Made by a program: the position numbers and the translations under genes. A DNA stretch of 64,000 bases. Origin: Candidatus Xianfuyuplasma coldseepsis (GTDB lineage: Bacteria > Bacillota_I > Bacilli_A > Izemoplasmatales > Izemoplasmataceae). The stretch is from the NCBI RefSeq assembly GCF_014023125.1, contig NZ_CP048914.1, positions 1 through 64,000 of the forward strand. Reading direction: 5' to 3'. Positions 13,619 through 32,945 of the stretch are shown in pieces. Each line of letters begins with the position of its first letter. Position 1 is the stretch's first letter. The notes beneath the pieces are model-generated. The model saw nothing but the letters and a program-made list of their open reading frames with translations. It searched no databases and was not told the DNA's origin.

Positions 13619-16249
13619 TTAATAAATACCTTGGGCAATCATCGCATCTGCGACTTTTACAAATCCGGCAATGTTGGCGCCAGCAATTAAATCATAGCCA
13701 AATCCGTAACGACTACTAGCACGGACACAGCTGTTGTAGATGTTTTTCATAATTTTGCGTAATCGTTCGTCGACTTCTTCCGCCGTCCAACTCATCCGCA
13801 TACTGTTTTGTGACATTTCAAGGGCACTTGTTGCCACCCCACCAGCATTGGCAGCTTTACCAGGTCCAATGATAACACCAGCATCTTGCAGCATCGCAAT
13901 CGCTTCATTGGTCGTCGGCATGTTGGCTCCCTCTACTATATATTTTACACCATTTTCAATGATTTGTTTGGCATCTTGCGGATAAATCTCATTTTGTGTC
14001 GCACATGGCATAATAATATCGACTTCGCGTTCCCATGGTTTTTTGCCCGGGAAGAACTCAACACCAAACTTGTCCGCATAATCTTGAATCTTACCATTGG
14101 TATTGGCACGCATTTCCAACATAAAATCTATTTTTTCTTGAGTGCTAATACCATCGGGGTCATAGATGTATCCTTCAGGTCCACTCAATGTGACAACTTT
14201 TCCACCTAAATCCCGTACTTTTTTACAAACTCCCCATGCAACGTTCCCAAATCCGCTCACTGCGACGGTTTTGTTTTTAAAGCTTAGATTATCGTGTTTT
14301 AACATTTGATGTGCGTAATAAGTCGCACCATATCCGGTTGCTTCAGGACGAATTAATGATCCACCGTACTCCAATCCTTTTCCGGTGAGGACACCATTTT
14401 CAAACGCACCACGAATGCGACGATATTGTCCAAATAAGTATCCTATTTCACGACCACCAACACCAATGTCTCCTGCAGGTACATCGACATCCGGTCCAAT
14501 GTGACGATAGAGTTCGGTCATAAAGCTTTCAGCAAAACGACGAATTTCTTCATTGCTTTTCCCTAGTGGGTTAAAATCACTTCCACCTTTTCCCCCACCA
14601 ATGGGAAGTCCGGTTAGACTATTCTTGAAGATTTGTTCAAATCCAAGAAATTTGATTAATCCCAAGTACACCGATGGATGGAATCGTAATCCACCTTTGT
14701 ATGGGCCGATTGCCCCATTAAATTGCACACGGAATCCACGATTTACTTGGATACTACCTTCGTCATCCACCCATGGTACACGAAACTGGATTGCCCGTTC
14801 CGGTTCCACAATGCGTTCCAAAATATTGTTTTCAATGTATTCCGGATGTTGTTCCAAAACGGGACCTAAACTATGAAGTACTTCCGTAACTGCTTGAACA
14901 AATTCAGTTTGATTTCCATCTTTGGAACGGACATTGTCCAGTACTTGTTCGATGTATTCTTTGGTACGAGACGATACTTTTCCGTCGGTCTCGGTTGTAT
15001 GCGCAAAACTGTCAAACTTATGAACAAACAGTCCACTGCGTAGTTTTGGTTCAAACCATGTGGATTTCGCCGGCATGATCAATCCAGCATCGGCTACCTC
15101 CATGATTTCTTGCATGGTTACTGGGAACATAGCAAAGCCTACACCATTTAACTCATCGGTTTTTTCTTTTAATCCTTTTAATCCTCGAATTCCACCAACA
15201 AAACTGATCCGTGATGAATTACGCAAATTGCGAATTCCAAGAATATCGTTCAATACATATTGTTCTAAGATGGCTGCATCAATGTTTTCTAAGACGTTAT
15301 CAACATCAACAAATCCATCTTTCAAGGTTAATTTATACCACGTATTATTCACATACATCCCAAATGTATTACGTTTTACTGGTTTGTACGGATGGGTGTG
15401 TTTTTCAACCGTAAAGGTTGGTTCTAGTAGTTTCAAAAATTCATCTACTGTTAATCCATTCAAATCATGAACAACACGATTGTACGGCATAATGTTCAGT
15501 GTCGATTCTGGGAAGATGACGCTCATAAAGAAGTTGAATTCTTCTTCACCGGTATAGTTTGGAAACTCACTGCGTCGTTTGAGTGCAACTTTTGCAGCAG
15601 AAGCCGAACGGTGATGTCCATCGGCTATATACAAACTATTAATCGATTGAAACTCATCTTGAATTTCTTGAACAATATCCAAATCATTGATTGTCCATAC
15701 CGAATGTCCAACACCATCATCGGTCACCATATCAAAATCTGGGTCGTGGTCCGTTGTCCATGAAGTCAAGATTTCTTGGAGACGATTTTGATCCCGATAA
15801 GTTAAGAAAATTGGTGCTGTGTTGGCATCACAGCGATCAAAATGGTCGAGACGATCTTTTTCTTTACTTAAAATCGTTAACTCGTGCTTTTTAATGATGT
15901 TGTTGACATAATCATCCACGGATGTACAAGCGACAAATCCAGTTTGTTCCATCCCGTTCATCACTTGACGATAAATGTAAATCATTGGTACTTCATCTTG
16001 TACCATAATTCCGTCATCTTCAAAGATCTTTAGGTTCTTCTGTGCTTTCTTGTACACTTTAATATCATACGGATCGGTCGATGATGGAAAATCAATCTCC
16101 GAACGAATGATGTGGAGGAAACTATAGGGGTTTCCTTTTGCCATTAATTTTGCTTCTTTACGATCCATTACATCATATGGCAATGATGCAACGCGTTCCA
16201 CTAAGTCTGGTCGTGGTCTTAGTGCTTTAAAAGGTCTTACTACAGCCAT
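13619..16249 (-). CDS. Fusion protein: DUF1015 + NADP-type glutamate dehydrogenase
   Basis: One 876-residue frame contains two complete proteins. Residues 1 to about 415 are DUF1015 (COG4198), with its start VRPFKALRP and the ADGHHR motif near 211. Residues about 428-876 are a full hexameric-type glutamate dehydrogenase (GdhA) with GPYKGGLRFHP near 516, the GGGKGG lysine near 552, DVPAGDIGVGGRE and the GFGNVAWG nucleotide-binding loop. A linker of about 15 residues joins them, and no ATG or ribosome-binding site is visible there. GDH aminates 2-oxoglutarate with ammonia and NAD(P)H. DUF1015 is of unknown function but is typically encoded beside serC and serA, exactly the genes preceding this one (15-bp gap). 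The coupling may link serine synthesis and nitrogen assimilation; that is inference. Confidence 0.93.
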   Translation of the reverse strand: MAVVRPFKALRPRPDLVERVASLPYDVMDRKEAKLMAKGNPYSFLHIIRSEIDFPSSTDPYDIKVYKKAQKNLKIFEDDGIMVQDEVPMIYIYRQVMNGMEQTGFVACTSVDDYVNNIIKKHELTILSKEKDRLDHFDRCDANTAPIFLTYRDQNRLQEILTSWTTDHDPDFDMVTDDGVGHSVWTINDLDIVQEIQDEFQSINSLYIADGHHRSASAAKVALKRRSEFPNYTGEEEFNFFMSVIFPESTLNIMPYNRVVHDLNGLTVDEFLKLLEPTFTVEKHTHPYKPVKRNTFGMYVNNTWYKLTLKDGFVDVDNVLENIDAAILEQYVLNDILGIRNLRNSSRISFVGGIRGLKGLKEKTDELNGVGFAMFPVTMQEIMEVADAGLIMPAKSTWFEPKLRSGLFVHKFDSFAHTTETDGKVSSRTKEYIEQVLDNVRSKDGNQTEFVQAVTEVLHSLGPVLEQHPEYIENNILERIVEPERAIQFRVPWVDDEGSIQVNRGFRVQFNGAIGPYKGGLRFHPSVYLGLIKFLGFEQIFKNSLTGLPIGGGKGGSDFNPLGKSNEEIRRFAESFMTELYRHIGPDVDVPAGDIGVGGREIGYLFGQYRRIRGAFENGVLTGKGLEYGGSLIRPEATGYGATYYAHQMLKHDNLSFKNKTVAVSGFGNVAWGVCKKVRDLGGKVVTLSGPEGYIYDPDGISTQEKIDFMLEMRANTNGKIQDYADKFGVEFFPGKKPWEREVDIIMPCATQNEIYPQDAKQIIENGVKYIVEGANMPTTNEAIAMLQDAGVIIGPGKAANAGGVATSALEMSQNSMRMSWTAEEVDERLRKIMKNIYNSCVRASSRYGFGYDLIAGANIAGFVKVADAMIAQGIY

Positions 16250-21246: not shown

Positions 21247-21277
21247 AAGAGCGCTTTTGCTAAAAGCGCTCTTTTTT
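21247..21277 (+). terminator. Strong terminator after the gamma-CA gene
   Basis: AAGAGCGCTTTT, a 3-nt loop and AAAAGCGCTCTT form a 12-bp perfect stem with a T run. It overlaps the -35 box of the next gene's candidate promoter. Confidence 0.9.
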
Positions 21278-21285
21278 GTTATACT
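21257..21285 (+). promoter_or_regulatory. Promoter of the KamA-like gene, overlapping the upstream terminator
   Basis: TTGCTA (21257-21262), a 17-bp spacer and TATACT (21280-21285) lie 22 bp before the start. The -35 is in the terminator loop, and the predicted leader would be only about 15 nt. Confidence 0.45.
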
Positions 21286-21307
21286 GAAAGTACAAGGGAG
21301 TGATTTC

Positions 21308-22534
21308 ATGAGTCCAAACATCGAATCGATACGACGATCGGATGAACTACAGGAAAAAACAACCCAATATCTTCAATTCAAATCCAATATCCACCAAAAA
21401 ATAATGAATAGCGAGGACGAATATACCAAGCGAAAACAACGCTTACTGGATTACTTTAATGGTACTGAAGACGACTGGGAAAACTGGCATTGGCAAATGA
21501 AAAACCGGATCCAAGATGTGGCCACATTATCATTGTTTGTCGACCTATCTACTACAGATTACAACGAGATTGCACGCGTCGTAAAACACAATCGATTTGC
21601 GATTGTTCCTTATTATGTAGCTATTGCCTCAAGAGATATCCATCATCCAGTGAATATGCTCAGTATTCCACGGGTTGCTGAAATTGTAGATACTACCGGA
21701 TATGATGACCCCATGGCAGAGGAGTTTACCAATCCAGCTGGGAGTATTACCAGACGTTATCCCGATCGCCTAATTATCAACGTCACCAACATTTGTGCGA
21801 TGTATTGTCGTCATTGTCAACGTCGTCGCCTTATCGGGGAGAGTGATCATCATACACCAGTTGAAATCATCAATGAATCCATCGAATTTATACGCAATCA
21901 TCCTGAAATACGAGATGTTTTGCTAACAGGAGGAGACGCCTTACTATTATCAGATCATCAGCTGGAATCGATCTTACAGCAACTACGAGCAATCCCCCAT
22001 GTGGAAATTATTCGTATTGGCAGTCGCACACCTGTAACCATGCCGATGCGAATCACACCAGAATTAGTACAGATGATAAAGCAGTATCATCCCGTCTATC
22101 TTAACACCCACTATAATCACCCATATGAACTAACCACTCGAAGCATGAAAGCATGTGAAGTCTTAGCAAACCATGGTATCGTTGTTGGCAATCAAGCCGT
22201 TCTACTGCGTGGCATTAATGACGATCCCTACATCATGACCTATTTGAATCAACGCTTATTACAAGCACGAGTACGACCGTACTATTTATTCCATGCCAAA
22301 AGCGTAAAAGGTACATCCCATTTCATTCCATCCCTTTCAAGAGGATTGGAGATTATGGACTTCATGCGTGGTTTTACAAGTGGTCTTGCCATCCCAACCT
22401 ACATTATGAATGCTCCTGGTGGTCTAGGCAAGGTTCCTCTATTGCCACAATACATTGTCAACAAATCAAAAAACACCTATACAATCCGTACTTGGGAAGA
22501 CAAAACATTTGAGTACGCGGATAGCGAGTATTAA
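21308..22534 (+). CDS. kamA: Lysine 2,3-aminomutase family radical SAM protein
   Basis: The 408-residue protein has the radical SAM cluster CAMYCRHC near residues 163-170, preceded by YPDRLIINVTN. The N-terminal WENWHWQMKNRI segment is typical of KamA-type aminomutases, and LLTGGDALLL and IRIGSRTPV follow. These enzymes use a [4Fe-4S] cluster, SAM and PLP to move an amino group between carbons 2 and 3. Lysine and glutamate 2,3-aminomutases are hard to separate by eye, so the substrate is open. The ATG at 21308 follows AAGGGAGTG; an earlier in-frame ATG at 21257 lies inside the upstream terminator and is rejected. No other lysine-fermentation genes lie in the window. Confidence 0.85.
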   Translation: MSPNIESIRRSDELQEKTTQYLQFKSNIHQKIMNSEDEYTKRKQRLLDYFNGTEDDWENWHWQMKNRIQDVATLSLFVDLSTTDYNEIARVVKHNRFAIVPYYVAIASRDIHHPVNMLSIPRVAEIVDTTGYDDPMAEEFTNPAGSITRRYPDRLIINVTNICAMYCRHCQRRRLIGESDHHTPVEIINESIEFIRNHPEIRDVLLTGGDALLLSDHQLESILQQLRAIPHVEIIRIGSRTPVTMPMRITPELVQMIKQYHPVYLNTHYNHPYELTTRSMKACEVLANHGIVVGNQAVLLRGINDDPYIMTYLNQRLLQARVRPYYLFHAKSVKGTSHFIPSLSRGLEIMDFMRGFTSGLAIPTYIMNAPGGLGKVPLLPQYIVNKSKNTYTIRTWEDKTFEYADSEY

Positions 22535-22550
22535 ATACTCGCTTTTTTTT
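22524..22550 (+). terminator. Terminator containing the kamA stop codon
   Basis: GCGAGTAT / ATACTCGC form a perfect 8-bp stem around the TAA stop, followed by nine T. Confidence 0.88.
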
Positions 22551-22573: not shown

Positions 22574-22609
22574 TATCCAGTTTGTAATATTCTATAATTA
22601 AACTGGATA
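22574..22609. promoter_or_regulatory. 10-bp-arm inverted repeat enclosing the -10 of the giant lipoprotein gene
   Basis: TATCCAGTTT (22574-22583) and AAACTGGATA (22600-22609) are perfect reverse complements separated by 16 bp. The only good -10 box, TATAAT at 22593-22598, lies between the arms. This layout suggests an operator that occludes the promoter, or a structured RNA leader. The -35 is not clear. Confidence 0.45.
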
Positions 22610-22631
22610 ATTATATAGAAGGAGGGTTTCT

Positions 22632-25600
22632 ATGAAACGATTGTTATTACTCTTCACCACGTTATTGGCGATGATTGCATTAAGTGCTTGCGATTTTTTT
22701 ACACCGGATGTCGTCGAAGAACTCAGTGAAGAATACTGTCGGGAAAATCCCAGCAGTGAAATTTGTACAGGTGATGCCGTTGGCGAATTGACAACGGAAT
22801 ACATCATAAACATTTTTAACACGATTCTAAATGAATACAACGATGCTACTAACACTACTTTTTGTGATGATTACTTCTCACTAAGTAATCTTACCCTACT
22901 CGACTCTTGTCGCGCAAATCGGGATGGACTGTTCCCTGAGGATGTCTCTAGTTATACCATACTCAGTGTCGATAGCGTCCTTGATTTTGGTACACAAGAT
23001 GAATATGAAATGGTGGTCGCAAGTCCCGACGGACTAACTCAATACACCTTTACCATTGGATTAACGAAGTTGGACGGGGACATCTTATTACAAGAATGGT
23101 CCTATGTTCAAGACCCAGTAGATCCAACAACGATTGCCGTAATTATGGAAGTTGCTATCCCATATTTTGAGCAGTTTATTGATGATTACACAAACGATAA
23201 CATTCAATCATCTACCGTTTGTCAAACCTACTTCCCAGATCAGGAATTAAATGACTGCGAAGCCGAACGGGATGAAGCGATTGCTGCAAATTTAACCGCT
23301 ACAATCATCAGGTTTGATGAAGTAGCAGAAGGGTTCTCGGTGACTCTATCACTTACCGATGATAGTGGATCAAAAACCGAAGTACTATTGTTAACCTTCG
23401 CATATGATAGCAACGCAAACATCATTATGACTTGGCCTGAGGACAACGGTATGTCCGACGAAGAAACCTGTCGTGAAAATCCTGACGATCCTATTTGCAC
23501 AGGTGCAGAAGCCAATATGAATACCGAGGATCTCCTCACGTTATTCCAACAAGCTGCTATCGATTTTGATGATGAAACGATAACGGATTTTTGTGATGTT
23601 TATTTTGGCATCTCCAATATCCCATTACTCGACGAATGTCGCGCTGATCGCACAAGTCTATTCCCGACAGATATTTCAACCTATGACATTGATTCGATTA
23701 CGGTTGTTGGAACCGATTTATATGAGATTGATGTAGTGAACCCCGCTCAACCGTTAACGCACTACGTATTCAAAGTGGGCGTCACATCAATCCAATCAAC
23801 CGTAGTCTTTGATGAATGGTCCTATGTTATCGAAACCATTGATCCAGCGACACTCACCGTTCCACTTGAAGATGCCGAACTATATTTTATAGGCTTTATC
23901 GACGCCTATACAAACGGTAATCTTGATTCTGAATCGGTTTGTTCAAACTACCTAGGATCAATGGATCAAACAGAATGTACCGAGCAGCGAGACAATGATT
24001 TGCTCAATGAACTTACTGTCGAATTACTTGATTTTGTTCCAGTGGATGACGTCGTTCATGTAACCATGAAAATGACCTCCATCGAGGGCGTAAAAGATCA
24101 AACCATCATCGTCAAGTTCTACTACGACTTTGGCTTATTCATTCAAATGGATATCCTAGGTGACCTATACAATTTAGATTATGATACGTTATGGAATTTC
24201 ACCGTAGATCTGTTTAACGATTTCTTCTTCAGTACAATCCCTGCTGAGACCGTTTGTATGACCTATTTCGATGAAGACCAATACGAGTTCTGTATGGAAG
24301 GGTACGCGGAAAAAGAAGCGTCTGGTTATACCCAAACACCAATCAACCTTGAAGAATACGACGATCATTATCTGATTACCCTAGAAACATGGAGTGAAGG
24401 ACAACTGCAACACACAATGACCATCCAAGCGTGGTTCTTCTATGTGGGCAACGAACTAAAAATCCACATTGATCCCGAGTCTGGTAATAATTCCGATTAT
24501 GAGTTCTACCACAACTTCTTCAAACAAATGATTCTAGATTATCACACGACATCCATTGATGATGAAACCTTCTGTAGCACATACTTCGAAGCGGAACACT
24601 ATGATATGTGTGTCAGTGATCGTAGTCAAGATGATTTTGATTATGAATGGAGCATTGAACTCTTTGAACAATTAATGAATCCAAACGAGTTTCATGTCAT
24701 TCTCTATTGGGATAATGGCTCAGATAACTATACCGAAGACTTATTAGTAACCTTCTATGATGTCGACGGTCATACAAAAATCAAAATGGATGGTTTCACC
24801 AATGACGACTATACCTATTATTATGATTTGATGCAAACCTTTATCGCTCAGTGGAATGATGAATACAACACCAGTGAGTGGGTTTGTACTACATTCATGG
24901 CTGGTGAAAGTTACCAAGGATGTATGGATAATCGCGAACAATTTCGTCCATTGGGATATACCATCTCGATCCTACAGTTCGAAGCCCCATATGACAATCA
25001 TAGTTGGATGACATCTCTCTTGTATGACAACGGTGACGATTCCTTCGTCCTACATGCAGAAATATACTTTGTCGAACTCAGTGGCGAAACATTCATCGAT
25101 TTTGTAAATGTCTGGATTGAAGATGAGCGAATTGATCAGTTATTCATCAATTTCATTAATGATTTCAACAATGACACAATCGATGATGAAACGCTGTGTA
25201 CCTCCTACTTCCGTTTTGAGGAAGACAAACAAAAATGTTATGACATGCGTGCTGGAGACCTGGGCGAAACCTTTGTCCGCTTAGATCATATCGAAGCTCT
25301 AGAACCTGGATTCTTTGCCCTTCACCTTACCCTTGAATACATGGGCAATACGTGGAACGAAACCTGGTTGTTTATGACATTTGAGGAAGATGGACAGTGG
25401 TTCCTAACCTTTGAAGATGACCCTTACCATGAGGACATCATTGCACTCTTTACCATGTATGTCGAAGAACTCATGAATCCGGATATCCCAGACGATGAAT
25501 TCTGTCACAAATACTTTAGTATGGAAGAAGCAACGCAATGTATCACACAACGTACTGCATTTGATTATAGTTATGTTGTCGAAATATCCTACATGATGCA

Positions 25601-28600
25601 AGTAGATGAGATGAATTTACAAGTACAACTCCACTTCTACAATAATGACAACGACTATTTCGAAGACTTCTTTGTCCAGTTCTACTATGATGAAAACAAT
25701 GAGTTAAGCATGCATTTCATGCCACTTGATGATACCTATGAACAAGATTTACAATTCTTCAATCAAATGATTACCGACTATCACAACATGGACTTTACCA
25801 ACGAAGAATTCTGTAGTATGTACTTCGAAGCCGACTTGTATACCCAATGTATCAATGATCGCAGCAACGACGATTTCACGTATGCATTAACCATTCAACA
25901 GTTTGCACCGTTAATGGGTGATCGTGAATACCACGCCATCCTCTATTGGGACAACGGAGTGGATAGCTATACCGAAGACCTACGAATTATATTCTACATT
26001 GTCGAAGGATCCACAAAAATAATCATGGAACCCTTCAACAACAATCCTGATATCGGATCCTTCATCGAAGGATTTATGCAGCAACTACTCGACTCATCGA
26101 TTAGTGATGATGCCTTCTGTAACGCATTCTTTATCGATTCAACCGATCCCCAGTGTTATGATTTACGCAATGCATACATCAATGGCTTCTGGATTGATTG
26201 GTACGAGTTCTATCCCCATAACGAATATTGGGTGATGACGATTGGCTTTACTGATGGATTTGATTACTTTGACGAAGAATTCGCCTTTGTTGTAGAACCG
26301 CAACATGATGGTAGTTATCGCCTGAAATTTATCGATGCGACCATCATTGATTTCGATGCGATATGGAATCGCCTTTATGAATTTGTTGACGATTTCAATG
26401 ATTACAGCATGATAACCGATGATATCGCTGCAATCTATCTCGTCCCCAATACATCTTTTGACATTATTAACTTACGGGAAATGACCCGCGAAAACAATAT
26501 CTATATCAATTACTACAGTCTCTTTGAAGAGTATGGAAACTATAGTATCCAACTCGATTTTGATGATGGTACTAGTTACCGCTATACACTGTATGTTCAT
26601 GAAATGAACGGACACCTATTCTTTGAATTGTTCGAAGACTTTAGCGGTATTGACATCACCGAAGGGGACGTCTCCGGTGTTGCGTATTCCATTTTCTGGG
26701 ATTTGGCCAATGGGTATACCATCGATGATATTTGCAACAACTACTTCGCCTATCATCAACACGAAATGTGTGCAACGATGCTTAGTGGCTTCCAATCATC
26801 GGACATCACTGTTGAAGTATCCAATGTGTGGTTCAATGTTGATCACTTTGAAATCGAACTTCGATACATCTATTCCGATATGACGGAAGAATATTATTAC
26901 TGGAATGTATACGCATTCTATGACAGTGATGATTTATTGAAATTAGAATTTACCGAAGATGACTACATACCACGTGAAGATAAAGATATCTTTATGCAAA
27001 ACTTTATAACGGATTTCAACGATAATTCATTTGATGCCGATGTCCTCTGTAATTTATACATGGCACCGGACTCCTATGATTTATGTACCGAGATCTACAC
27101 AACCCTCTCAACTAACAACTACATGCTGAACTGGTATACATATGATTTATGGAATGAACCAAATTGGGTTGAATTTGGTGTCTATGATAGCACGTATCAA
27201 ATGATTCATTACTTCTTCTATGTTCAAGTCGAGTTTCGTCTCGATGAGTTCAATAATATGACGATCTCGTTATGGGATTATACCGAATATCAACGAGTTA
27301 GTGAAGCCCAAGCAATTGCCGCCATTGATGGTATATTTGCAGCGCTTCATGACCTTACAATCACCGATGATGAATTCTGCAATGAGTGGGGCTACATCTT
27401 TAATGACTGTTATGGATTACGCCAACTAATTCGTGATGAAGGTGGTACTTTACTTCGCGGAGAAACCAATGTGGAAGACGAACTGCAATATTACGTGCAA
27501 GCAACTCTAACTACAAATAGTTATACCGAAGAATACTACTTCCACTTCTATGTTAAAAGTGATTTACAAGGATTCGTGTATGTCGATGGTTATCAAGAAG
27601 ATCACAGCTACATGGTTCCATTATCCGTCGCAACGGAGTTTATCACAGCATTCTTTACAGATTACCTTGATCCGTCGATTCTAGAACCCGACTTCATAGC
27701 GTTATACAATGATAACTACTGGGTTCCAGGAGTCGAAGATCGACAACGTTATCTCGATCAAGGTTACGGTATTACCGTGACTGATGTGCGACTTGCGCTG
27801 TACGACGGATACTATATCTTTGAAGCTGATTTGGCCGTATTTAATGGTACTGATACGTACTATTACACAATGCCAATCGATGTCTATTACAAAGACAACA
27901 ATGAACTAGCAATTGGACCGCGTATGGACTATTTAAGTGCGGGAACCGACTATATGACTACGTTAGCTCAAGGATTCTATGATGGACTCCTTGACGATAC
28001 AGTCGACGATATCACCTTCTGTACCGACTTGTTTGGACCAGACGGAGAATATCCTTGTGCCGATATCCGACGTCAATTAATCGATTCCAATTACACCTTA
28101 GATTTAGTCGACATCAGTGCCGATGACTACAATGCAATGTTAATCATCGATGTCTATAGTGGTACAAACTTAGTCACTACATTTGATTGGACAATTTATT
28201 CCTATTCAACCCTCTTAGGAGAAATGAAGTTTCATTTAGAAATCTGGTCCGATGAAATAGCAGCTGAAAGTCTTGCATTATGGGTCGAACAATTCACAAC
28301 AACCTATGCTGTTGGTTATTCCATCACCGACATCTGTGCATTGGACAACATCGATTGCAATGGTATATGGATTGATGAAGGACAAGTCATTGATTCAATT
28401 TACTTCCAAGAGTTCTATCACAATTACGAAGATGTCCTCGGTCTTGAATTTGAACTAAATATCATGTTCTTCTATACCGATGGTAGCGAACAATCGATTG
28501 GATTTAATGTAACATACGCAGTCAACGAAAACGGCGTGTACACCTGGTACTTCGTAGTAGAACGACTAAAAGCACCACTGCCGGATGATGCAATGGCATT

Positions 28601-28937
28601 ACCACTAACAGTTGTTGAAGTAGTCCTTGATCAATTTATGCTTGACATCAAAGACGGAAGCATCGATGCAAGAACATTCTGCGATACGTACTTCGGTGGT
28701 AATTTCGAGAATCCTGATTGCTTGGAAGGACGACCTGAAATCATCCTAACCAATCCAACGATAACTCGTTCGGATATCGGAACAACCGTCATTGACAATG
28801 TCACATATTACACGGTAACCTTCTATATTGATAATGGTGTAAATGTGGAAGAACAATTTGTCACTCTGCGTATCTTCCAGATTGCAGAAAACCAGTTTTT
28901 TATTCAATTTTATGACGACATGCCAAATAATATGTAA
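22632..28937 (+). CDS. Giant repeat lipoprotein, about 19 Cys-pair repeats
   Basis: The 2101-residue protein begins with a lipoprotein signal (LSAC, lipid-bearing Cys at residue 20), so it is anchored outside the cell membrane. The rest is about 19 degenerate repeats of 103-125 residues. Each repeat starts near a signature FC-x2-YF-x7-8-C-x3-R and continues into a beta-rich stretch with alternating hydrophobic and acidic residues. Signatures lie near residues 75, 194, 319, 435, 540, 646, 751, 854, 956, 1059, 1162, 1266, 1367, 1472, 1582, 1686, 1795, 1901 and 2015. In the 12th and 16th repeats both Cys are lost together, which points to an intra-repeat disulfide. Repeats 6 and 10 are especially alike, as are 1 and 3. 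It is strongly acidic, and I do not recognise the family. It is monocistronic, with a terminator after it. Adhesin, binding scaffold or stalk are possibilities only. Confidence 0.9.
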   Translation: MKRLLLLFTTLLAMIALSACDFFTPDVVEELSEEYCRENPSSEICTGDAVGELTTEYIINIFNTILNEYNDATNTTFCDDYFSLSNLTLLDSCRANRDGLFPEDVSSYTILSVDSVLDFGTQDEYEMVVASPDGLTQYTFTIGLTKLDGDILLQEWSYVQDPVDPTTIAVIMEVAIPYFEQFIDDYTNDNIQSSTVCQTYFPDQELNDCEAERDEAIAANLTATIIRFDEVAEGFSVTLSLTDDSGSKTEVLLLTFAYDSNANIIMTWPEDNGMSDEETCRENPDDPICTGAEANMNTEDLLTLFQQAAIDFDDETITDFCDVYFGISNIPLLDECRADRTSLFPTDISTYDIDSITVVGTDLYEIDVVNPAQPLTHYVFKVGVTSIQSTVVFDEWSYVIETIDPATLTVPLEDAELYFIGFIDAYTNGNLDSESVCSNYLGSMDQTECTEQRDNDLLNELTVELLDFVPVDDVVHVTMKMTSIEGVKDQTIIVKFYYDFGLFIQMDILGDLYNLDYDTLWNFTVDLFNDFFFSTIPAETVCMTYFDEDQYEFCMEGYAEKEASGYTQTPINLEEYDDHYLITLETWSEGQLQHTMTIQAWFFYVGNELKIHIDPESGNNSDYEFYHNFFKQMILDYHTTSIDDETFCSTYFEAEHYDMCVSDRSQDDFDYEWSIELFEQLMNPNEFHVILYWDNGSDNYTEDLLVTFYDVDGHTKIKMDGFTNDDYTYYYDLMQTFIAQWNDEYNTSEWVCTTFMAGESYQGCMDNREQFRPLGYTISILQFEAPYDNHSWMTSLLYDNGDDSFVLHAEIYFVELSGETFIDFVNVWIEDERIDQLFINFINDFNNDTIDDETLCTSYFRFEEDKQKCYDMRAGDLGETFVRLDHIEALEPGFFALHLTLEYMGNTWNETWLFMTFEEDGQWFLTFEDDPYHEDIIALFTMYVEELMNPDIPDDEFCHKYFSMEEATQCITQRTAFDYSYVVEISYMMQVDEMNLQVQLHFYNNDNDYFEDFFVQFYYDENNELSMHFMPLDDTYEQDLQFFNQMITDYHNMDFTNEEFCSMYFEADLYTQCINDRSNDDFTYALTIQQFAPLMGDREYHAILYWDNGVDSYTEDLRIIFYIVEGSTKIIMEPFNNNPDIGSFIEGFMQQLLDSSISDDAFCNAFFIDSTDPQCYDLRNAYINGFWIDWYEFYPHNEYWVMTIGFTDGFDYFDEEFAFVVEPQHDGSYRLKFIDATIIDFDAIWNRLYEFVDDFNDYSMITDDIAAIYLVPNTSFDIINLREMTRENNIYINYYSLFEEYGNYSIQLDFDDGTSYRYTLYVHEMNGHLFFELFEDFSGIDITEGDVSGVAYSIFWDLANGYTIDDICNNYFAYHQHEMCATMLSGFQSSDITVEVSNVWFNVDHFEIELRYIYSDMTEEYYYWNVYAFYDSDDLLKLEFTEDDYIPREDKDIFMQNFITDFNDNSFDADVLCNLYMAPDSYDLCTEIYTTLSTNNYMLNWYTYDLWNEPNWVEFGVYDSTYQMIHYFFYVQVEFRLDEFNNMTISLWDYTEYQRVSEAQAIAAIDGIFAALHDLTITDDEFCNEWGYIFNDCYGLRQLIRDEGGTLLRGETNVEDELQYYVQATLTTNSYTEEYYFHFYVKSDLQGFVYVDGYQEDHSYMVPLSVATEFITAFFTDYLDPSILEPDFIALYNDNYWVPGVEDRQRYLDQGYGITVTDVRLALYDGYYIFEADLAVFNGTDTYYYTMPIDVYYKDNNELAIGPRMDYLSAGTDYMTTLAQGFYDGLLDDTVDDITFCTDLFGPDGEYPCADIRRQLIDSNYTLDLVDISADDYNAMLIIDVYSGTNLVTTFDWTIYSYSTLLGEMKFHLEIWSDEIAAESLALWVEQFTTTYAVGYSITDICALDNIDCNGIWIDEGQVIDSIYFQEFYHNYEDVLGLEFELNIMFFYTDGSEQSIGFNVTYAVNENGVYTWYFVVERLKAPLPDDAMALPLTVVEVVLDQFMLDIKDGSIDARTFCDTYFGGNFENPDCLEGRPEIILTNPTITRSDIGTTVIDNVTYYTVTFYIDNGVNVEEQFVTLRIFQIAENQFFIQFYDDMPNNM

Positions 28938-28942
28938 TAAAT

Positions 28943-28973
28943 AAAAGAATCTTCTCACGAAGATTCTTTTTTT
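28943..28973. terminator. Terminator between the giant lipoprotein and YczE-like genes
   Basis: AAAAGAATCTTC, loop TCAC and GAAGATTCTTTT form a 12-bp perfect stem with a T run on the plus strand. The stop codon of the convergent gene (28955-28957) is in the loop. Confidence 0.88.
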
Positions 28974-30213: not shown

Positions 30214-30261
30214 CTTTTTATTACGAGATTATTATACTATAATAGATACGAGGTGTTCCCT

Positions 30262-31809
30262 ATGAAAACTGTTGACTTTCAAGTTCTCCATACATCCGAT
30301 ATTCATGGTTACGTGTATCCGTATCACTATGCGACAATGGAAGCCGCCAATATCGGATTGGCAAAATTATCGACGTTAATTAAACAACGTGCCAAACACA
30401 ATCATCTATTAATCGATACCGGTGACACAATCCAAGGCAGCCCCTTGACGTATTATTATGCAAGGCAATGTGACAAAACAGTTCACCCTATGACTACGGT
30501 CATGAATGCCCTTGGCTATGACTATGTTGCCATTGGTAATCACGAGTTTAATTACGGTCTCGACAATCTTCATAGCTATCTTGATCATCTTGATGCGACC
30601 ATTCTCAATGCGAACTTATTGGATGATCTAACAACGAATCCATTTGTCGGTGTATCGCACGCGATTACGTCGTTTGACAATGGACCTACTGTGGGAATTA
30701 TCGGTGTAACAACCCACTACATTCCCAACTGGGAACAACCATCTCATATTGCACATCTACACTTTCAAGATGCCTTTGAAACCACGAAAAGATTAGTCGG
30801 TGAACTACGCAATCACGTCGATTATCTCATCGTCAATTATCACGGTGGATTTGAACGAGATTTGACAACGTTTGAATTGTCCACCGATGATACCGGTGAA
30901 AACCAAGGAGCCAAAATGCTGCAAGAGATTGACGGCATCGATTTACTACTTACCGGTCACCAACATCGATTACTCACAGGTTCACACAAGAATACATTCT
31001 ACAGTCAACCAGGATTCAACGCGCAACACCTAGTAGAAATCAATATTCGTGCTACATACGATAATGGATGGACCTTTCACCATGAAGCAACGATCCATGA
31101 TACCAAAGGAATCGCTGCGGATAATCATATCCTCAACTTACTCCATGATGTGGAATCAAATACACAAGCATATTTGGATACAACGGTTGGATATCTCGAT
31201 CAACCTTACTTGATTACCGATCAACTTCAAGCACGTCTACATAAACACCCCTTGGTATCGTTTATCAATCAGGTGCAACTGGAATATACCAATGCGGATA
31301 TCTCCTCCTGCAGTCTTGGTAATAGTGTATCAGGCTTTAATCAACACATCACCATCCGTGATATCATCAGCACCTACATCTTTCCCAATACACTTGTTGT
31401 CAAAGAGTGCACTGGTAAAGAGTTACGAAAAGCCCTTGAAAAAACGGCTACATTCTTTGATATCGATGGTGATGACATCATCATTTCATCGGAGTACAAT
31501 GATCCGAAACTCCAACTGTACGCCTATGACATGTACGATCCGATTCACTACACCATCAACGTTTCGAAACCCCATGGTTCTCGCGTTGAAAACCTAACAT
31601 TCCATAATCAACCAATCAACGATACGGATGTGTTTTCAATCGTCATGAACAATTATCGCGCCAGTGGTGGCGGCGAATATACATTTATCAAGGACTGTCC
31701 TGTACTGAACGATACCCAAATGGAAGTCATTGAAATCCTCATTGATTACATCCAAGAACATCCCCAGTTATCGATTAACCATACAAAAAACATTACCGTT
31801 ACAAAATAG
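30262..31809 (+). CDS. Cytosolic 5'-nucleotidase / 2',3'-cyclic phosphodiesterase family
   Basis: The 515-residue protein has the two-domain layout of the UshA/YunD family. The N-terminal calcineurin-like metallophosphatase domain shows HTSDIHG, DTGDTIQGSP, IGNHEFNYG, NYHGGFE and LTGHQH, covering the metal ligands. The C-terminal 5'-nucleotidase domain starts near residue 330 and contains the substrate-clamping NYRASGGGEY segment. It has no signal peptide, unlike the lipoprotein relative at 37774, so it should act in the cytosol on nucleotides. The ATG at 30262 is preferred; the GTG nine bases upstream is part of the GAGGTG ribosome-binding site. It lies next to a DNase lipoprotein gene. Confidence 0.9.
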   Translation: MKTVDFQVLHTSDIHGYVYPYHYATMEAANIGLAKLSTLIKQRAKHNHLLIDTGDTIQGSPLTYYYARQCDKTVHPMTTVMNALGYDYVAIGNHEFNYGLDNLHSYLDHLDATILNANLLDDLTTNPFVGVSHAITSFDNGPTVGIIGVTTHYIPNWEQPSHIAHLHFQDAFETTKRLVGELRNHVDYLIVNYHGGFERDLTTFELSTDDTGENQGAKMLQEIDGIDLLLTGHQHRLLTGSHKNTFYSQPGFNAQHLVEINIRATYDNGWTFHHEATIHDTKGIAADNHILNLLHDVESNTQAYLDTTVGYLDQPYLITDQLQARLHKHPLVSFINQVQLEYTNADISSCSLGNSVSGFNQHITIRDIISTYIFPNTLVVKECTGKELRKALEKTATFFDIDGDDIIISSEYNDPKLQLYAYDMYDPIHYTINVSKPHGSRVENLTFHNQPINDTDVFSIVMNNYRASGGGEYTFIKDCPVLNDTQMEVIEILIDYIQEHPQLSINHTKNITVTK

Positions 31810-31812
31810 AGG

Positions 31813-31841
31813 TTGCGAAACGTCCCTATCTTTTGTACAAT
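31813..31841 (+). promoter_or_regulatory. Promoter of the endonuclease lipoprotein gene
   Basis: TTGCGA (31813-31818), a 17-bp spacer and TACAAT (31836-31841) lie 21 bp before the start codon, so this gene has its own promoter although the nucleotidase gene lies close upstream. Confidence 0.6.
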
Positions 31842-31862
31842 GAACTGTTATGAGGTGACCCT

Positions 31863-32945
31863 ATGAAACGACTATTTATCCTATTTTCAATGCTTATCAT
31901 AATTGGAACATTATCCGCTTGTATACAGACCACCGTTGAACCGGGTGACGATGTAGTTGAGACTCCGGTAGAATCTGAAATTGAAGCTTTCTTAAAGGAA
32001 TACTTTAATGGTGCCGAATCCGCGATAAGCGTTACCGAGAACATCACTCTACCAACATCGTATAACGGAACAACCGTTATCTGGTTTTCCCCCAACCAAG
32101 ATGTTATCAATAGCACCGGAACCATCCATCGACCATTGTATGGCGAGGATGCGGTTGAAGTAACCTTAAGTTTTACGATGTACGGTGATACCAATACCTA
32201 CAGTGGCAATGTGACTTTTTTGGTTCTTCCAGAAGAGGAACCCATTGAAAACTGGGGCTACTATGAAGGGGCCCAATCCTTGACAGGAGAATCATTAAAA
32301 TCGTTCTTGCATGAGTTGATTGATGATCATGATGAACTTACATACGGTGAACTATGGGAAGCATTAGCCGATACCGATGAAGATCCCAATAATTCGAATA
32401 ATGTTCTTTTACTATACAGTGAAGTTAGTATCTCAAAAGATTCGATATGCAGTGTCACTTGTCCCTCAACGACCTCGTGGAATCGTGAGCATGTGTGGCC
32501 TAAATCCCATGGTGGTTTTGACACAAGTGATATTGAAGGAACCGATTTACACCATATACGCCCATCACTAGTTGTCGTCAATAGTGGCCGTGGAAATCTT
32601 GACTTTGATGATGGTGGATCATTACAGGACTATACAACAGATAGTTTTAAAGATGGAGATTCCTTTGAACCCGCAGACAGCGTCAAGGGCGATGTCGCTC
32701 GAATGATTTTCTACATGGCTGTACGCTATGAAGGGGATTCAGGAGAACTGGATTTGGAATTGAATAATCTCGTGAACAACAGTGGTCCTTATGTTGGAAA
32801 ACTAAGTGTTTTACTCGAATGGCATTTAAACGATTTACCCGATGCCTTTGAAATCGAACGTAACAATCGTATTTATGAAAAACAAGGTAATCGGAATCCG
32901 TTTATCGACCATCCCGAATTTGTTGAACTGATTTGGACATCATAA
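31863..32945 (+). CDS. Endonuclease I-family DNase lipoprotein
   Basis: The 360-residue protein has a lipoprotein signal (LSAC, Cys20), an Ig-like domain (about residues 38-118, the atypical bacterial Ig type) and an endonuclease I/NucM domain (about 130-355). The catalytic beta-beta-alpha-metal motif is NREHVWPKSHG near residue 206, followed by DLHHIRPS and NSGRGN. Two Cys flank the motif (ICSVTC). The family degrades DNA, sometimes RNA, non-specifically outside the cell. Anchoring to the cell surface and nearby nucleotidases suggest use of environmental DNA as food. AGGTGACCCT precedes the ATG. A hairpin terminator follows. Confidence 0.92.
   Translation: MKRLFILFSMLIIIGTLSACIQTTVEPGDDVVETPVESEIEAFLKEYFNGAESAISVTENITLPTSYNGTTVIWFSPNQDVINSTGTIHRPLYGEDAVEVTLSFTMYGDTNTYSGNVTFLVLPEEEPIENWGYYEGAQSLTGESLKSFLHELIDDHDELTYGELWEALADTDEDPNNSNNVLLLYSEVSISKDSICSVTCPSTTSWNREHVWPKSHGGFDTSDIEGTDLHHIRPSLVVVNSGRGNLDFDDGGSLQDYTTDSFKDGDSFEPADSVKGDVARMIFYMAVRYEGDSGELDLELNNLVNNSGPYVGKLSVLLEWHLNDLPDAFEIERNNRIYEKQGNRNPFIDHPEFVELIWTS

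Follow-up and report, generated by a model that had tools for sequence, protein, structure and literature searches.

On the surface of wall-less Mollicutes cells, lipoproteins of the Vsp/Vlp type vary in length with the number of short, near-identical repeats they contain. Known NTF2-like proteins, to our knowledge, usually have one domain per chain, carry no conserved cysteine pair and do not form long arrays; iota-carbonic anhydrase has NTF2-like domains in repeat. Here we analyzed a gene at positions 22632-28937 (plus strand) of a 64,000-base stretch of DNA (the window, bases 1-64000 of the single 1,958,905-base contig of the Candidatus Xianfuyuplasma coldseepsis genome), which encodes a lipoprotein of 2101 amino acids made of 19 diverged units. 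Each unit is a predicted NTF2-like (cystatin-like) domain, the cysteines of the units are kept or lost as pairs, and unit content differs between orthologues encoded at the same locus. We read the protein as a length-variable, disulfide-stapled, lipid-anchored surface stalk and put the probability of this reading at about 0.5.

The host strain, zrk13 (Izemoplasmatales), is a cultured, free-living, wall-less strict anaerobe that inhabits sediments, uses extracellular DNA and has a small genome of 1,958,905 bp (PMC8397711).

The open reading frame starts with ATG, and its product begins with a signal peptide and a bacterial lipobox, ALSA-C (residues 16-20), from which cleavage and lipidation are predicted. 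Cutting the protein at its cysteine signature gave 19 units of 102-124 amino acids. The original prediction, made from the DNA letters, had described a lipoprotein of 19 diverged units, and profile analysis bore this out: in a leave-one-out (jackknife) hidden Markov model (HMM) analysis 18 of the 19 units scored 16.8-71 bits, against maxima of 4-15 bits for 100 shuffles per unit. R18 alone was not significant (3.9 bits vs 9.2 for shuffles). The signature proposed at the time, FC-x2-YF, occurs literally only six times, and it is the looser form C-x2-[YFWL] that repeats. Median identity between units is about 21% over about 105 residues, and blastp of the protein against itself returned the trivial hit only. 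The elements of the protein are encoded as follows.

22632-22691 (+): signal peptide and lipobox, Cys20 being the predicted lipidated residue
22737-22766 (+): N-terminal CRENPSSEIC motif, Cys36 and Cys45
22773-23129 (+): unit R1, amino acids 48-166, the most conserved unit, Cys78 and Cys93
23130-23468 (+): unit R2, amino acids 167-279, Cys197 and Cys209
23469-23498 (+): second CRENP motif, Cys280 and Cys289, copied in the R1-R2 to R3-R4 duplication
23502-23849 (+): unit R3, a copy of R1
23850-24164 (+): unit R4, a copy of R2
24165-24482 (+): unit R5
24483-24794 (+): unit R6, close to R10
24795-25106 (+): unit R7
25107-25412 (+): unit R8
25413-25721 (+): unit R9
25722-26027 (+): unit R10, a close copy of R6
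26028-26336 (+): unit R11
26337-26642 (+): unit R12, without cysteines, orthologous to the cysteine-less unit 12 of L032, the closest orthologue
26643-26957 (+): unit R13
26958-27287 (+): unit R14
27288-27605 (+): unit R15
27606-27929 (+): unit R16, without cysteines, orthologous to the cysteine-less unit 17 of L032
27930-28244 (+): unit R17
28245-28589 (+): unit R18, divergent, Cys1902 and Cys1909 in C-x6-C spacing
28590-28934 (+): unit R19, C-terminal, Cys2017 and Cys2030

The unit similarity matrix revealed a two-unit block duplication from R1-R2 to R3-R4 (z 29 and 21), which includes the CRENP motif and, by sequence comparison, is real. R6 and R10, whose likeness had been noticed before, are 56% identical and are the only close pair at an offset of four units. 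The four-unit block duplication that had been proposed from this pair was rejected, because the units on either side of R6 and R10 do not correspond at that offset (R5/R9 z 0, R7/R11 z 3, R8/R12 z 0).

The repeat had first been reported as unrecognised. This stands for described sequence families, but the fold itself can be recognised by structure prediction. No Pfam or NCBIfam family scored above its cut-off for the 2101-residue protein, and none, the named NTF2-like families included, gave consistent matches across 87 units or 22 N-terminal modules. PHROGs and PADLOC gave no convincing match. No PDB entry matched by sequence below E 0.1; the designed curved-sheet protein 5kpe ranked first in the PDB profile search, a result insignificant by itself (E 0.11). 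A phage origin was also considered and rejected, since neither a relative in viral contigs nor a PHROGs match was found, and by PADLOC the protein does not belong to a defence system.

AlphaFold2 models were obtained for R5-R8, from a 31-row alignment of non-overlapping four-unit windows, and for the N-terminal module (residues 21-269), from a 22-row alignment. In the first model, with a mean predicted local distance difference test score (pLDDT) of 84 and a predicted template modelling score (pTM) of 0.55, DSSP assigned three helices followed by four strands to every unit. The second model (pLDDT 92.5, pTM 0.75) begins with a helix, which is followed by the CRENP loop and then by R1 and R2 with the same fold. 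The arrangement of three helices on a four-strand sheet was thus seen in R1, R2 and R5-R8, while its curvature and packing are taken from Foldseek. Foldseek matches in the PDB were mostly NTF2-like or cystatin-like proteins, which made up most of the top 50 for the N-terminal module. Among them were the VirB8-like OrfG, TcpC, NTF2, the CaMKII association domain, ketosteroid-isomerase-like proteins and designed NTF2-like proteins. The matches had probabilities of up to 1.00 and target-normalised template modelling (TM) scores of about 0.5; E-values were modest (best 3.7e-4, single-domain matches about 1e-2).

The protein has 38 cysteines after the lipobox. Thirty-four form 17 pairs within units, and the other four, missed in the original prediction, form two C-x8-C pairs in the motif CRENPxxxIC (residues 36/45 and 280/289). 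Cys36 and Cys45 are invariant across 22 aligned sequences. The loss of both cysteines from R12 and R16 had already been interpreted as the loss of a pair, and L032 agrees with this at its matching units. The analysis of 175 alignable units in 16 large family proteins gave the same picture: 117 units have both cysteines, 58 have neither and none has a single one. A strict column count gives 111, 58 and 6, the six being units whose second cysteine is displaced by a few residues from its column in the alignment; as the units are related by descent, a p-value for this association is no true probability. The number of cysteines after the lipobox is even in all 16 proteins, two of which end at contig ends. 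Within a unit, one cysteine lies in helix 2 and the other in helix 3, mostly at a distance of 12 residues. That no unit in the 16 proteins has a single cysteine is difficult to account for unless the two form a disulfide. Co-loss shows that the cysteines are paired, and from it we infer the bond.

Obligate anaerobes tend to keep cysteines out of exported proteins (review, PMC12453122). All-or-none cysteine pairs in a strict anaerobe run counter to this exclusion and raise the question of how the disulfides would form. No match to VKOR, DsbB or DsbD was found in the X. coldseepsis genome, whereas control genomes gave matches. The sole DSBA match, a 237-residue protein with a CPFC motif and no signal peptide, is FrnE-like and probably located in the cytosol. 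Four further proteins belong to the thioredoxin superfamily: three small ones with an N-terminal membrane helix and a CGAC or CPYC motif, and a lipoprotein with CSHC (L078, L081, L079 and L080, at G000 C1:1169200, 1172069, 85632 and 612873). These are probably exported and membrane- or lipid-anchored, and would be natural candidates for making the disulfides of the repeat protein.

Fifteen further large proteins of this kind were found, one a paralogue in the X. coldseepsis genome and the others in the same taxonomic family. The large proteins have 801-2192 amino acids and 6-19 detectable units, and a lipobox is present in 16 of 16. Five of them (L032-L036) are orthologues at the same locus, beside gamma-carbonic-anhydrase-like and yczE-like genes; they are 2192, 2043, 1722, 1559 and 1162 amino acids long, with about 9-19 detected units. 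R1 and R2 find their best reciprocal matches in all five. With L032, R12-R17 and R19 are colinear and R6-R11 are not; a single unit of L034 corresponds to four in L033. The same locus and a conserved base, combined with differing unit content, indicate that the number of units varies within a framework that is itself conserved. For the same species pair, units are mostly 24-57% identical and flanking genes 52-81%: the repeat gene diverges faster than its neighbours.

The repeat protein is present in some genomes of the family but not in all. In a search with a profile of the N-terminal module, strong members came from several genera of the family, and one weaker member (G066, E 3e-28) belongs to a second family of the order; most weak matches of this search cover the lipobox region only. 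With the unit profile, nothing was found outside the family at E 1e-5 among 296 genomes of the class. The relatives from the genome scan include Candidatus Izemoplasma/Izimaplasma and other Tenericutes assemblies. In four proteins of about 260-271 amino acids (L064-L067) the lipobox is replaced by an N-terminal membrane helix, after which come the C-x8-C motif and the R1-R2 region. Both units were detected in three of the four and the first unit only in L067; by their sequences these proteins look like a minimal form of the family. The gene neighbours of these two-unit relatives are mutually unrelated.

The second large family protein of X. coldseepsis, L039 (C1:598750-602346; L039 7750-11346), resembles L042 and L044 in that nearly all units lack the cysteine pair and many linkers hold a close-spaced one. 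Such a move of cysteine pairs from units to linkers is expected if joints are being stiffened. The linker pairs often lie inside acidic DxDxDG-like loops, which recall calcium-binding type-3 repeats and may themselves bind calcium. In L042 (8150-11449), units 3 and 7 are 78% identical and units 4 and 6 70%, which points to recent unit copying. A different very large protein, L073 (3-3551, G011 C77), has long near-identical repeats with similar C..Y..C units.

These data suggest the following arrangement. The signal peptide and Cys20 would anchor the protein on the outside of the only membrane of the wall-less cell. A conserved base (the CRENP loop with its cysteine pair, R1 and R2) would be followed by about 17 NTF2-like domains on short linkers, with a disulfide joining helix 2 to helix 3 in most units. 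Units would be gained and lost in the middle of the array, between a preserved N-terminal base and several preserved C-terminal units, and their number would determine how long the rod is. Fully extended, with about 4 nm for each of the 19 domains, the rod would measure roughly 75-85 nm; most likely it would coat the bare membrane or hold its C-terminal end out for contact with particles or cells. The original prediction offered an adhesin, a scaffold or a stalk. All are reasonable, and variation in length best supports the stalk; binding and adhesion would be a further step of inference. Several points weigh against a stalk of this kind. The pTM of the four-unit model leaves the relative orientation of units poorly determined, so that a rigid rod is only one possible shape; colinearity of the C-terminal units is clear for one orthologue only; and NTF2-like domains often bind ligands, so that passive spacing is not the sole reading.

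That last point leads to a different proposal, in which the NTF2-like cones act as a multivalent array that captures a small molecule or peptide and holds it near the membrane for uptake transporters. Folds of this class are commonly pocketed, pocketed enzymes and designed binders are among the Foldseek matches, and one arginine is kept in 80% of units. Beyond this arginine and structural aromatics, however, the units are near 20% identical and share no common set of polar pocket residues; no significant co-variation was seen between the arginine and the helix-1 aspartate or other columns (p 0.05-0.28). The genes flanking the repeat gene include no enzyme or transporter partner, and we regard ligand capture as unlikely. 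Slightly less likely still is a coat or armour, with many copies forming an S-layer-like or glycocalyx-like acidic layer that has no special tip. The strong acidity noted from the start (19.5% Asp+Glu, 3.2% Lys+Arg) would suit such a layer, as would the lipid anchor, the wall-less lineage (PMC8397711) and the presence of two large family members in X. coldseepsis and more in its relatives. No assembly signature was seen, however, and the patchy distribution described above argues against a universal coat.

It appears improbable that the protein is a specific adhesin that attaches to cells, minerals or extracellular DNA through its C-terminal units. The kept order of R12-R17 and R19 in L032 speaks for it, as does life on extracellular DNA in sediments (PMC8397711), but neither a lectin or Ig-like domain nor any other binding domain was recognised at the C terminus. 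Direct binding of DNA is disfavoured by the extreme acidity of the protein. The length-variable stalk remains our preferred reading.

The gene is probably transcribed alone, judging from the signals around it: a terminator-like hairpin lies upstream and the downstream gene is convergent.

22523-22543 (+): intrinsic-terminator-like hairpin 3′ of the upstream aminomutase gene (one found vs 0.1 expected in shuffles)
22582-22611 (+): weak sigma-70-like promoter, TTGTAA-18-GATAAT, by consensus match only
22619-22626 (+): strong Shine-Dalgarno sequence AAGGAGGG, 5 bases upstream of the ATG
28943-28970 (-): terminator-like site with a 12-bp hairpin, between the repeat gene and the yczE-like gene that converges on it

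A functional link through neighbours was rejected, the flanking genes being metabolic and set apart by the terminator and the convergent gene. The upstream KamA-type gene (21257-22534, +) scored best as glutamate 2,3-aminomutase (608.7 bits, below the cut-off of 650), an identity that would imply production of beta-glutamate, an osmolyte. Elsewhere in the window, an 876-residue open reading frame (13619-16249, -) appears by eye to be a fusion of a DUF1015-like N-terminal half and a glutamate dehydrogenase C-terminal half; L036 has a full-length counterpart with 79% identity, and the putative fusion would hence be conserved. At 30253-32945 (+) a 5′-nucleotidase gene is followed by one for an Endonuclease I lipoprotein with an aBig_2 domain, likely for extracellular DNA use; this order is kept in L032 and L034.

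Little is known of how free-living bacteria without a cell wall coat their surface or extend it, and the family offers a testable answer in a cultured strain. We found no paper describing tandem arrays of such NTF2-like units in the open-licence literature. The fold is known; its long, lipidated, disulfide-stapled array appears to be new. It is tentative, and somewhat less probable than the stalk itself, that this is a new family of length-tunable stalks of disulfide-stapled NTF2-like domains, found largely in one Izemoplasmatales family, in strict anaerobes whose many exported disulfides form without DsbB, VKOR or DsbD, probably by means of membrane-anchored thioredoxin-like CxxC proteins.

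Compared with described proteins, the units share three helices on a curved antiparallel sheet with NTF2 (1oun), PA1314 (1tp6) and the designs 5kpe and 9r0t (Foldseek probability 0.96-1.00, target-normalised TM 0.43-0.56), with no significant sequence match. TcpC and the VirB8-like OrfG of Gram-positive conjugation (3ub1, 7pkw), among the best Foldseek matches, are likewise exported tandem NTF2-like proteins near the membrane. They have two domains and belong to conjugation machinery, whereas the repeat lipoprotein has up to 19 units and is lipidated; no conjugation genes were found among the neighbours tested. Iota-carbonic anhydrase (7c5y), also a Foldseek match, is an enzyme, whereas the repeat units have no common catalytic signature. 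The Vsp/Vlp-type proteins are likewise lipoproteins of wall-less cells whose length follows repeat number; in place of their short, near-identical repeats, the protein described here uses folded domains of about 105 amino acids that are near 20% identical. Normally found as a single domain with a pocket, the NTF2-like fold here joins the folds that build long tandem arrays.

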